Shown: positions 2,991-5,894 of the stretch, one piece after another | Layout: the number at the start of each line of letters is the position of its first letter | How positions within the stretch are numbered: position 1 is the stretch's first letter | DNA from: Coleofasciculus sp. S288 | GTDB taxonomy: Bacteria > Cyanobacteriota > Cyanobacteriia > Cyanobacteriales > Coleofasciculaceae | Length of the DNA stretch: 8,020 bases | Assembly: GCA_020216575.1 (NCBI GenBank) | Contig: JAIUYC010000129.1 | Location: forward strand, 1 to 8,020 | Direction of reading: 5' to 3' | Position numbers and translations under genes: made by a program | Notes under the pieces: model-generated | Database searches by the model: none | What the model saw: the letters and a program-made list of their open reading frames with translations, nothing else | What the model was told of the DNA's origin: nothing

Positions 2991-3793
2991 GTCTTTTCCA
3001 ACTTAGTCCCGCAGATTTTGCAGAACTGAGCATCCTTATCATGGAAGGGCAAACCACAACCCGAACAGGACTTCTCAACTTGGTTCGCTGTTTTGAGTAA
3101 TTGCTTAATCAAATCCCCTAATTGCCAAGGAATCAGAGCAATTCCCGTCAAAATCATTAGCACTGTCAGCAATCTGCCGCCTTCTGAAACCGGAGTAACA
3201 TCTCCAAACCCTACGGTTGTCATTGTGACAACAGAAAAATAGAACGCATCTAAAAACGTTCCAAACGCCTCAGCATTGACTCGATGCTCAACTTGATAAA
3301 TAAAACCCGAGTAAATAAAAATAATTGTAAATAAGGTAAATAAAATTCTGGCAAAAATAACGCCGTCTTCAGAGCTGATTCTTAAAAAATAAATCTTCAG
3401 ATTTATAAACCGAATTAATCGCAGCAGTCGAAACCATCTGAAAATTCGGATAAATTGGATATTGGTGAGTCTCAGAATGAAAGGCAAAATAGCAATCAAG
3501 TCAACGAGAGCGAAGGGACTAAAAAAGAACTTTAATTTCTCTTCGGCACACCAAAGCCGGATTAGATACTCCGTAACAAAAATAACTCCAATTAATCGAT
3601 CAATCGTATCAATAATAGTACGAACCGAATCAGGGATTGGGTAAGTTTGAGCGACGAAAATCGCTGAAGATAGCAGAATGAGTGCCAGAATGAACAAATT
3701 TACGGCTCTACCGACTGGCGTTTCAATATCTTCTAAGTAATGGGCAATCTTTCGCCGCAACGGTATTGTAGAAAAATTTAAATTAAATTCCAT
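2981..3793 (-). CDS. Voltage-gated-type K+ channel with C-terminal zinc ribbon
   Basis: This is a 270-residue six-helix cation channel of the ion transport family, expected in a membrane as a tetramer. Residues below count from the ATG at 3793. S1 is about 29-50 and S2 about 62-82 (conserved E75, R79). S3 is about 92-108 (D98). S4 is the voltage sensor, with arginines at every third place (116, 119, 122, 125, 128). S5 is about 145-168, and S6 about 207-226. The pore helix leads to the selectivity filter TVGFGD at 193-198, a potassium-type signature. A soluble tail follows with CxxC (243, 246) and CxxC (258, 261), a small zinc ribbon. An in-frame TTG at 3805 would add four residues. I prefer the ATG, which overlaps the mutL end by 11 bases, consistent with translational coupling. 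The last codons lie in an inverted repeat. K+ selectivity is inferred from the filter; gating and physiological role are unknown. Confidence 0.88.
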   Translation of the reverse strand: MEFNLNFSTIPLRRKIAHYLEDIETPVGRAVNLFILALILLSSAIFVAQTYPIPDSVRTIIDTIDRLIGVIFVTEYLIRLWCAEEKLKFFFSPFALVDLIAILPFILRLTNIQFIRIFRWFRLLRLIRFINLKIYFLRISSEDGVIFARILFTLFTIIFIYSGFIYQVEHRVNAEAFGTFLDAFYFSVVTMTTVGFGDVTPVSEGGRLLTVLMILTGIALIPWQLGDLIKQLLKTANQVEKSCSGCGLPFHDKDAQFCKICGTKLEKTNW

Positions 3794-5684
3794 GACTCTT
3801 GCCAATCACCCAATGACGGCGGAAGAAGCGAGACAGTGCTGACTCTTCTAGCGGTAAATAAATGGGGCGTCCGTGGGGACAAGTGCGAGGATTGCGAGTC
3901 ACTTTCCATTGGTCTAATAATGCCTGCATTTCTGGCAAGCTTAACGGTGTACCATTGCGAATGGCACTGCGACAAGCTGTTGCCACCTGAGCGGCTTGCA
4001 AGTCTCCTCCCAAGCTCAGTTCTAAGAGGGCATCCGCACAATCGTCTCGTTTTGTCAAGAGTTCGGGAGCGTTGCGGACTGCCCACACGCGATCGCCAAA
4101 GGGTTCCACATCCAATCCCAAGCGCTGAAGTTGCTCAACCTGAGCGGGTGTCAAATAATTGAGAATGACTGGAGTTTCCAACGGTACAAGCTGCCAGCGA
4201 TCGCACAATTGCTCGTACAATACCCGCTCGTGGGCAATGTGCTGCTCGATTAACCACATCCCTGTCGGATGCTCTGCCAGGATGTACATCTTGTGAATCT
4301 GAGCTACAGCCCGCAGTTCAATTAGTCCAATTTCAGTCGCTTTCTTGGTATTTTTATCATCTTGGGGTGTGGGTTGAACGGAACGGTTTACATGATAAGC
4401 TCCTTTTTCTTCCGACACCTTGATCAACTTCGCCACTCGTTCAGATTGAGAGGCGGTGGGAAGATTAGCAGAACTGATGCGTAAGGCTTGCTCAATCGCT
4501 TGCGTCACCTGTTCTTGCCAGTAACTGAGCGAGTGCAAGTAAATTTCTGCCTTAGCCGGATGCCGATTCCAATCAATTTGGCTCGGGCAAATCTGGAGGT
4601 GGAGGAAACAAATCGGAAAGCGATCGCGCGGCACTGTTCGCGCCAACGCCGCCAAAATAGTTTGTTCCAACTCAGGCGATCGCACTAAGCGTCCATTCAT
4701 CGCCACCTTTACCCAATCCGGGCGTCGCCGATGACATCGATCCGGTAGTCCCAAAACGAGTTCAATTTTAGACGAGGGGTTAGGGGAAGACGGGGAGACG
4801 CGGAGAGGGGGAGACGTGGAGAGGTTTATTAAAGAACTCCCCGCGTCCCCGCGTCCCAATGCCTCCGTGTCCCCGCGTCCCCGTATCCCCGTGTCCCCGC
4901 GTCCCCGTATCCCCGTGTCCCCGTGTCCCCGCGTCCCCGTGTCCCTGCGTCCCCGCGTCCCCATGTCCTCCTCTTCCCCAGTTCCTGAAGGTGTTGGCAC
5001 ATCCAGCGCTAAATACTGCAAGTCAGTCTGTCGCACTTGCTTCAAGATTTGGGGCAGAATCTGCTGTGCCACCTTGCCCGGACTAATAGTAAACCAGGGG
5101 CGATCGTTTTGTTGCACCTGCCAGGTAACGCTGGGATGGCAGAGGGCAATTTGCTGAATGGTTGCCTGTACAGCTTTGAGTTGTTGAGCAATGCTTGGTA
5201 ATCCTTTGCGACGCACAGGCCAATTCCCGAATAAATGAGAGACGCTGACAACCGTACCGGGTGCGATCGCGGCAGCTTCGATTCGGAGCGGTTCGCCTTG
5301 GGAATTATACGTCACTCGCCACCCCTCAACCGTTCCTGCCAGTCGGCTCAAAATTTCTAGTTTTGCCAGCGCCGCCAAACTGTGTAAGGCTTCTCCGCGA
5401 AAGCCCAAACTCGTAATCTTCCACAAATCATCCTTACTGCGAATTTTACTCGTGCTGTGAGCAGAGGCGGCGTGTTGCAAATCTTTCAAACTCATGCCAG
5501 TCCCATTATCCGCCACTCGTACTCGCCACTGCTCAGACCATAGTGAAACCACGATACGAGTTGCACCAGCATCAAGAGCATTATCCACCAGCTCTCGCAC
5601 TACTGCTGCTAACGAGTCAATCACCTCGCCAGCAGCAATCAAATTCACCACCTCCTGAGGGAGGGTTTGGATACCAACAGACAT
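3783..5684 (-). CDS. mutL: DNA mismatch repair protein MutL, endonuclease type, with internal repeat insertion
   Basis: MutL links mismatch recognition by MutS to strand removal. The N-terminal GHKL ATPase shows RELVDNALDAGA (30-41, catalytic Glu31 and Mg-binding Asn35), DNGTGM (59-64), TSK (78-80) and GFRGEAL (94-100). The transducer domain resumes at about 306 (KIELVLGLPD, then VAMNGRLVRS, and NRHPAKAE at 373-380). The C-terminal dimerisation domain carries a metal-dependent nicking site: EQHIAHERVLYE at 480-491 (a variant of DQHA-x2-E-x4-E), ACRSAIRNG at 570-578 and CPHGRP at 602-607. This fits MutH-less organisms, where MutL itself nicks. The 633-residue length exceeds the usual cyanobacterial size because residues about 240-303 are encoded by eight-base tandem repeats, giving DTGIRGRG-like units and then a Ser/Pro-rich stretch. 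The ATG at 5684 places the conserved IAAGEV where expected (16-21). It overlaps the downstream channel gene. Confidence 0.96.
   Translation of the reverse strand: MSVGIQTLPQEVVNLIAAGEVIDSLAAVVRELVDNALDAGATRIVVSLWSEQWRVRVADNGTGMSLKDLQHAASAHSTSKIRSKDDLWKITSLGFRGEALHSLAALAKLEILSRLAGTVEGWRVTYNSQGEPLRIEAAAIAPGTVVSVSHLFGNWPVRRKGLPSIAQQLKAVQATIQQIALCHPSVTWQVQQNDRPWFTISPGKVAQQILPQILKQVRQTDLQYLALDVPTPSGTGEEEDMGTRGRRDTGTRGHGDTGIRGRGDTGIRGRGDTEALGRGDAGSSLINLSTSPPLRVSPSSPNPSSKIELVLGLPDRCHRRRPDWVKVAMNGRLVRSPELEQTILAALARTVPRDRFPICFLHLQICPSQIDWNRHPAKAEIYLHSLSYWQEQVTQAIEQALRISSANLPTASQSERVAKLIKVSEEKGAYHVNRSVQPTPQDDKNTKKATEIGLIELRAVAQIHKMYILAEHPTGMWLIEQHIAHERVLYEQLCDRWQLVPLETPVILNYLTPAQVEQLQRLGLDVEPFGDRVWAVRNAPELLTKRDDCADALLELSLGGDLQAAQVATACRSAIRNGTPLSLPEMQALLDQWKVTRNPRTCPHGRPIYLPLEESALSRFFRRHWVIGKSHGI
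4783..4823. repeat. G-rich octamer repeats, opposite orientation, within mutL
   Basis: On the plus strand GGGGAGAC (4792-4799), GCGGAGAG (4800-4807), GGGGAGAC (4808-4815) and GTGGAGAG (4816-4823) form four eight-base units, preceded by a related GGGGAAGAC. They face the C-rich octamers at 4839-4966 across the 15-base spacer 4824-4838, so the whole looks like an imperfect inverted structure with G runs on opposite strands. In mutL they encode the Ser/Pro-rich stretch at about residues 288-301. Confidence 0.75.
4839..4966. repeat. Tandem octamer repeat (16 units of CCCCGYRT) inside mutL
   Basis: The plus strand shows CCCCGCGT, CCCCGTGT and CCCCGTAT units in tight succession: 128 bases, exactly 16 eight-base steps. 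Twelve consecutive units (4871-4966) have at most one base off the CCCCGYRT pattern, while 4855-4870 are degenerate. Three units make 24 bases, so the mutL frame reads an eight-residue period: MGTRGRR, then DTGTRGHG, DTGIRGRG twice, DTEALGRG (residues 241-279). Similar GGGGACACGGGGACGC-type repeats are familiar between genes in cyanobacteria. Here they are inside a conserved repair gene, in a place where MutL homologues have a transducer-domain loop. On the coding strand they give nine GGGG runs with 4-base gaps (4871-4938). Confidence 0.95.
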
Positions 5685-5696
5685 AAACGCTCAACA

Positions 5697-5739
5697 TGTT
5701 GGAGGTTAGGAGGTTACAAGGTTGAAGATTAGAAGGTTC
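5697..5739. repeat. Short 7-8 base tandem repeats upstream of mutL
   Basis: On the minus strand this reads as CCTTCTAA, TCTTCAA, CCTTGTAA, CCTCCTAA and CCTCCAA, a degenerate 7-8 base tandem array of a type common in filamentous cyanobacteria. It ends about 12 bases before the mutL start codon, so it lies in the mutL leader, leaving only a weak GAG as ribosome site. An inverted relative occurs at 5868-5894. Confidence 0.65.
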
Positions 5740-5824: not shown

Positions 5825-5867
5825 AGATTTTTACAAAATTGCAACCTACCCGTCTTTTAACCCCTCA

Positions 5868-5894
5868 CCTGCAAACCTGCAATCTTCCAACCTA
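5868..5894. repeat. Inverted counterpart of the 7-8 base repeats, downstream of the kinase gene
   Basis: On the plus strand this reads CCTGCAAA, CCTGCAA, TCTTCCAA, CCT, the same kind of unit as at 5697-5739 but in opposite orientation. The shared core is AGGTTG-AAGATT followed by AGGTT in both. The two arrays bracket the double palindrome at 5766-5824, which gives a nested arrangement. It starts (in the gene's direction) about 14 bases past the kinase stop codon. Confidence 0.6.

Follow-up and report, generated by a model that had tools for sequence, protein, structure and literature searches.

How does a conserved DNA repair gene come to carry a tandem array of eight-base units within its reading frame, and what would a change in that array do to the protein? 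The question arises in Coleofasciculus sp. S288 (assembly GCA_020216575.1, which is fragmented, with 1069 contigs and 67% completeness), where positions 1-8,020 of contig JAIUYC010000129.1, the 8,020-nucleotide stretch analyzed here and hereafter called the window, encode a MutL protein. Its frame matches Pfam families PF13589 (HATPase_c_3), PF02518 (HATPase_c), PF01119 (DNA_mis_repair), and PF08676 (MutL_C), and the best PDB matches of the MutL model in Foldseek were the MutL N-terminal domains 9n2k and 1nhj/1b63. The gene and the repeat element within it comprise the following features.

3783..5684, minus strand: mutL, 633 aa, with ATPase, transducer, and C-terminal endonuclease-type domains (open reading frame, Pfam, Foldseek)
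4783..4979, minus strand: palindromic repeat element, in frame in mutL, with outer ends GGGGAAGA.. on both strands (inverted arms 4783-4812 / 4950-4979)
4784..4824, plus strand: facing arm of GGGGAGAC-type units, G-rich on the plus strand (TRF periods 8 and 16; inverted repeats with the main array)
4825..4837, minus strand: AT-rich spacer separating the two arms (gap between TRF arrays)
4838..4968, minus strand: main octamer array, mutL sense-strand unit GGGGACRC/GGGGATAC, 16.4 copies, with a 24-bp higher-order repeat (TRF, lag identities)

An initial annotation, made from the letters alone, had placed an octamer block and a facing G-rich set within the mutL frame, and both were recovered. TRF reported the main array at 4838-4968 (period 8, 16.4 octamers, score 157) and the facing G-rich set at 4784-4824, as period-8/16 arrays at 4784-4822 and 4788-4824. 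Lag-8 identity in 4838-4968 was 0.80, a level that 0 of 10,000 mononucleotide shuffles attained (the highest was 0.54); outside the array, no 131-bp stretch of the window exceeded 0.40. Identities within the main array were 0.79 at lag 16, 0.87 at lag 24, and 0.84 at lag 32, and TRF on the mutL gene gave a best period of 24 with 5.5 copies. Facing each other, the arms make up a single palindrome. Because complementarity between its outer ends, 4783-4812 and 4950-4979, is 73%, a figure to be read with the fact that facing octamer arrays match anyway, the element is better bounded at about 4783-4979. The insert has a GC content of 0.70, against 0.51 in the remainder of mutL, and contributes MutL residues ~239-300, with the facing arm (4784-4824) encoding Ser/Pro-rich sequence in the mutL reading. 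As had also been proposed, the motifs on either side are intact: the protein retains GFRGEAL in the ATPase as well as two C-terminal blocks, EQHIAHERVLYE and CPHGRP, which we take to be endonuclease motifs.

An RNA fold of 4783-4968 was only modestly better than shuffles (z -1.74, equaled by 8/200 shuffles), and RNA structure as the function of the element was rejected on that ground. The window had no Rfam match at gathering scores. In a protein search with the insert alone, covering lengths of about 348-1107 aa, the 182 candidates included four other proteins that reached E<=0.001, of which one bears the name pyruvate,water dikinase and another glycosyltransferase; the insert peptide is therefore rare at that sensitivity. 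With a period of 8 and the unit GGGGACRC, the mutL element departs from the 7-nt unit GGGGA(T/C)T of Rehm et al. Upstream of mutL, the window also holds a period-8 array at 5703-5738 (AGGTTAGA) and a short ACCTGCAA repeat at 5867-5882, with an inverted repeat, judged by eye, between them.

The octamer arrays are not confined to mutL. A search of the host genome, which the initial annotation had suggested, found the same arrays scattered elsewhere: the exact three-unit pattern matched 43 times in the host against 1 for the reversed control, and two perfect units were present on 29 host contigs. The three-unit pattern occurred in 16 of the 57 genomes searched, host included, and some exceeded the host (for example, G017 with 198); the reversed control pattern was itself common in a few other genomes, above all G050. 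Host octamer clusters numbered 29, of which 19 lay outside genes, in keeping with the earlier remark that repeats of this style sit mostly between genes. Of the 10 inside genes, nine were in frames open through the array and one split its gene. Four further genic cases (L150, L153, L154, and L156) came from looser lists, outside the 29 clusters. The genic arrays are as follows.

L117: nSTAND NTPase gene, open frame through the array
L119: L-aspartate oxidase NadB, open frame through the array
L120: kinase-AAA protein, open frame through the array
L122: 830-codon frame matching nothing in Pfam or NCBIfam, open through the array
L130: sensor-kinase/receiver protein, G-rich strand antisense, open frame through the array
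L134: beta-helix/OmpA protein, open frame through the array
L137: histidine kinase, open frame through the array
L139: valyl-tRNA synthetase (ValS), open frame through the array
Window: MutL, open frame through the array
L143: split gene, the array separating two frames
L150: VIT/vWA protein, genic array from the looser list
L153: CobD-type aminotransferase, genic array from the looser list
L154: LL-diaminopimelate aminotransferase type, genic array from the looser list
L156: double ABC ATPase, genic array from the looser list

Forty host stretches were fetched, four of which (L145, L147, L148, and L149) had no array above the score cut. Across the window and every host locus fetched, eight pairs of neighboring arrays lay within 200 nt: seven facing with the G-rich arm first, one in tandem, and none with the C-rich arm first. 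The order of G-rich arm, short spacer, and C-rich arm seen in mutL was the same at other host loci.

Other arrangements were grouped into element types by eye. In a second type, a conserved tail (AGAGAGATTTTCATCCT..GTTCATGG..) comes after the octamer array; L150, L153, and L154, which are unrelated genes, carry it in frame and have in common a peptide around TERFSSxVVN. This type was also seen at L130, L131, L133, L142, and L152. A third type has inverted ends (gtggtcataagtagttggttgag / caccaactggttttgaccgcaccc) flanking an octamer array (L121, L127, L129, L140, and L144) and sits outside the long open reading frames seen. Separately, the HypD gene at L132:4989-5060 carries, both in frame, a G-rich array of another kind and, after it, an array of the heptamer CCAAAAT.

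The initial annotation had proposed checking whether close relatives lack the insert. A MutL match was found in 35 of 37 genomes searched, host included. Among relatives with both MutL halves listed, one half stops at residue 224-250 and the other picks up at 292-307. The DTGTRG-type peptide was absent from the 29 other aligned mutL loci, two of which (L002 and L003) are truncated where their contigs stop, and three of the 29 (L010, L012, and L017) hold a different G-rich octamer or double octamer there. The insert is thus absent from the orthologs aligned, but only in part from P0006, the closest MutL homolog found, which keeps the C-terminal part of the insert (SSSINLSVSPPLRVSASSPNLSS). P0006 is identical to the window MutL at 572/593 aligned residues (96.5%) and differs by a single gap of 40 residues, equivalent to 120 bp, 15 octamers, or 5 x 24 bp as read off the protein rather than the DNA. 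Since P0006 retains the C-terminal part, the element is likely older than the difference in array length. P0002-P0005 were dropped as not being MutL. The two contig-end loci (G003:C549 and G011:C283, from two relatives) both end in the same loop, which suggests that long repeats may have broken the assembly there.

Insertion is also suggested for other genic copies. By matching contigs, the host groups in one family with Symploca SIO2E9 and Limnofasciculus. NadB matches in all 18 other genomes of the family end at residue 303-309 and restart at 359-367, and the best NCBIfam match of L154 breaks at residue 235 and resumes as a second stretch. At the CobD-type site, four relatives fitting the search pattern carry unrelated sequence of other lengths. 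ValS is a weaker case, because its insert just precedes a CAAD domain that many relatives lack. Target sites were compared in the loci of relatives that fit the pattern (6/9 for NadB and 4/9 for the aminotransferase), and for neither NadB nor the CobD-type gene could the ortholog loops be aligned to the base. These comparisons bear on whether a whole element, long array included, jumped recently into mutL as a finished unit of MITE or RPE type, with no array change inside the gene. Such a jump would fit the arm arrangement common to other host loci, as well as the sister type with its conserved post-array tail in three unrelated genes (L150, L153, and L154). We nevertheless regard it as unlikely, given that P0006 already holds the C-terminal part of the insert and is without the 40 residues only, that the array has an internal 24-bp repeat, and that no target duplication was found among ortholog loops that do not align to the base. 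Because P0006 has the C-terminal part and differs by exactly 15 octamers' worth, growth or loss of the array must be joined to any account of invasion.

We then considered the site itself. Loop lengths were obtained from 115 of 120 MutL homologs (five failed an anchor) and ranged from 24 to 92 residues (sd 16.4), as compared with 96-109 residues (sd 1.9, 115 homologs) for the HPAK to EQHI stretch, interdomain linker included. Every MutL with an extracted loop has some loop there, of at least about 11 residues as anchored, and the octamer-type peptide was present in only 6 of the 118 loops extracted, counting that of the window. From 86 cyanobacterial loci, six of which failed anchors and six more of which were duplicates, we retained 74 distinct mutL genes. 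With a TRF score of at least 40 and the loop taken with 30-bp margins, an array lay in the loop in 21 of the 74, with some loop repeats common to near relatives, so that 21/74 is not a tally of independent gains; arrays lay elsewhere in the gene in 14/74. The loop accounts for only 6,900 of the 132,177 bp in these genes. Best periods of the loop repeats include 7, 8, 14, 16, 21, 24, and 27, representing several unrelated units, mostly other than the window's octamer and including heptamers such as CCAATTC. The loop is permissive, and the window is not unique in this respect: other cyanobacteria carry other short tandem repeats there. The initial annotation had read the insert as a repeat that invaded a conserved gene. 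The host-wide repeat family bears out its repeat origin, but a one-off invasion of a conserved site is not supported, because the loop is hypervariable and 21/74 mutL loops carry tandem repeats.

An AlphaFold model was built from 54 diverse sequences (pLDDT 75.6) and replaced a poor one from 50 close homologs (pLDDT 47.8). It placed one strand at residues 221-229 and another at 303-311, with pLDDT under 50 at 235-299 and block means of about 31-40 in the insert. According to this model, the array would form a disordered loop lying between two strands of the transducer, which agrees with the disordered loop envisaged at first. That the insert is instead an ancient functional MutL domain is highly improbable. 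It would sit well with the presence of some loop in every MutL from which one was extracted, yet loop lengths and sequences are unrelated between genera and the loop is predicted to be disordered. An insert conserved across distant cyanobacteria, the result that the initial annotation said would mark an ancient domain, was not seen among the homologs examined, and the ancient domain was rejected because the loop is not conserved.

Next, we examined what the length of the array would mean for the protein. As the period of 8 and the codon length of 3 are coprime, the array encodes an 8-residue repeat per 24 bp. Of the six frames across 4783-4968, four, mutL's among them, have no stop, and the others hold one and two. 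Changes of -2, -1, +1, or +2 units, made in silico at one array position, brought a stop at codons 279-306, which would remove what remains of the transducer and the entire C-terminal domain, whereas changes of -3 and +3 units left the frame open at 625 and 641 aa, respectively. Since 8 is not a multiple of 3, the gain or loss of one or two octamers would truncate MutL. The computed frames and the P0006 difference together fit one feature of a contingency locus, namely a tandem repeat in mutL whose copy number would alter the product. Higher-order periods of the genic arrays are not all multiples of 24 (L156 reads 16, and the lag-32 identity in mutL is near that at lag 24), and a frame filter is therefore not visible in every genic array.

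The split gene (L143; G000:C996, 491-1500, minus strand) offers a possible view of a failed array. Here, a 15-unit array lies between two protein halves in different frames, and the halves match the same single open reading frame in 13 of 14 loci of relatives at 28-45% identity, with the half matches consecutive or slightly overlapping. The gene is secreted-looking, and its halves had no Pfam family match. If the assembly is right, L143 shows the effect of an array of the wrong length. No further split gene was seen among the non-genic arrays, as judged from nearby open reading frame lists and Pfam scans of ten frames, with arrays beyond those Pfam-scanned judged from the lists alone: at L128, L152, and L155 the two neighbors of the array belong to different families by Pfam, and at L118, L121, and L129 one gene adjoins the array.

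With a host assembly that is fragmented and 67% complete, misassembly could account for the lengths of the arrays and for the break in frame at L143. For mutL in particular, a short-read artefact in the length or presence of the array is very unlikely. The 1069 contigs at 67% completeness, and the MutL contigs of two relatives (G003 and G011) that end in this loop, would be in its favor, but no stop interrupts the frame anywhere in the array, P0006, a separate record, carries the C-terminal portion of the insert as well, and the unit type agrees with many other arrays.

Truncation by slippage also raises the idea that selection has kept the array as a reversible mutator switch, with slips of one or two units turning MutL off and later slips turning it on. 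In line with this are the 8-bp unit, the truncation of MutL before its C-terminal domain by the tested changes other than three units, and a frame-off array in the same genome (L143). A 6-bp mutL repeat switch has, moreover, been described in Salmonella (PMC2955026). Similar arrays in many unrelated genes, however, and other repeats in many mutL loops, are what neutral tolerance would be expected to give, and we consider selection for a switch improbable. The broader proposal, that mutL is a reversible mutator switch derived from a domesticated palindromic repeat, and that the transducer loop is a standing site refilled by different 7-/8-bp repeats per lineage, appears doubtful to a similar degree. 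Loops of 8 nt are poorly seen by MutS and poorly handled by mismatch repair.

The account that we consider probable is that a palindromic octamer element of a host-wide family sits in frame in mutL, in a loop predicted to be disordered, with an array varied by slippage. On this account, the element would have arrived in mutL before its array length changed, the 8-bp array would lengthen and shorten by replication slippage, and selection on frame would filter the resulting lengths, since an intact MutL is predicted only for three-unit steps (24 bp). Cells with a slipped array would be temporary mutators. We read the element as an RPE-like palindromic octamer repeat that is slippage-prone and frame-filtered.

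Short tandem repeats are typical of cyanobacteria, and short tandemly repeated repetitive (STRR) heptamers occur in heterocystous species. The mutL element differs from STRR heptamers in its octamer unit, its palindromic arrangement, and its place within a conserved gene. The best-known in-frame repeat elements of housekeeping genes are those of Rickettsia; in this cyanobacterium, octamer palindromes occur in NadB, ValS, MutL, and other genes. Among the papers listed in a literature search covering titles and abstract openings, there was no description of octamer elements in cyanobacterial coding genes. By virtue of its 8-bp unit length, every genic array is a potential frame switch. MutL stands out most, since a slipped cell that lost it would have a higher mutation rate. 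As a recurrent repeat site, the MutL transducer loop makes neutral tolerance versus evolved mutability testable by length typing.

In behavior, the closest known system appears to be the Rickettsia palindromic elements (RPE), outlined in a review (PMC10969869) as small, dispersed palindromic repeats, many of them in frame in unrelated genes with a recurring peptide. To the extent of that outline, the mutL element is likewise palindromic, with inverted arms, and dispersed in one genome (seven facing pairs, G-arm first), and its relatives are in frame in unrelated genes (9/29 clusters in open frames and 1 splitting its gene, plus L150, L153, L154, and L156). It differs in being built of variable-length octamer tandem arrays and in belonging to a cyanobacterium; the likeness drawn here is one of behavior. 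Another described family of genome-dispersed palindromes also codes for protein, but its description concerns a 25-residue motif in unassigned open reading frames rather than an octamer array in conserved genes. In sequence style, the closest system in the accounts consulted is that of the G-rich heptamers GGGGA(C/T)T / GGGAATC, reported from Nostoc and Xanthomonas by Rehm et al. (2015; PMC4692102). Both consist of short, G-rich tandem repeats spread through the genome of a cyanobacterium. By that report, the Nostoc heptamers are mostly intergenic (68%), with some intragenic, their facing pairs are few, and they are under-represented on the sense strand of conserved genes; the host arrays, in contrast, have a unit of 8 rather than 7, frequent facing pairs, and copies on the sense strand of conserved genes. 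In consequence, the nearest parallel would be the Salmonella mutL allele switch, given by Chen et al. (2010; PMC2955026) as three 6-bp units in the ATP lid, of which one is lost in frame; the same paper gives the repeats in mutL and mutS of other bacteria as mostly mono- and trinucleotide. In both systems, the copy number of a tandem repeat in mutL controls, or here would control, MutL activity. The array described here differs in having about sixteen 8-bp units in a loop of the transducer, and slippage there would change the reading frame; it is known from sequence.
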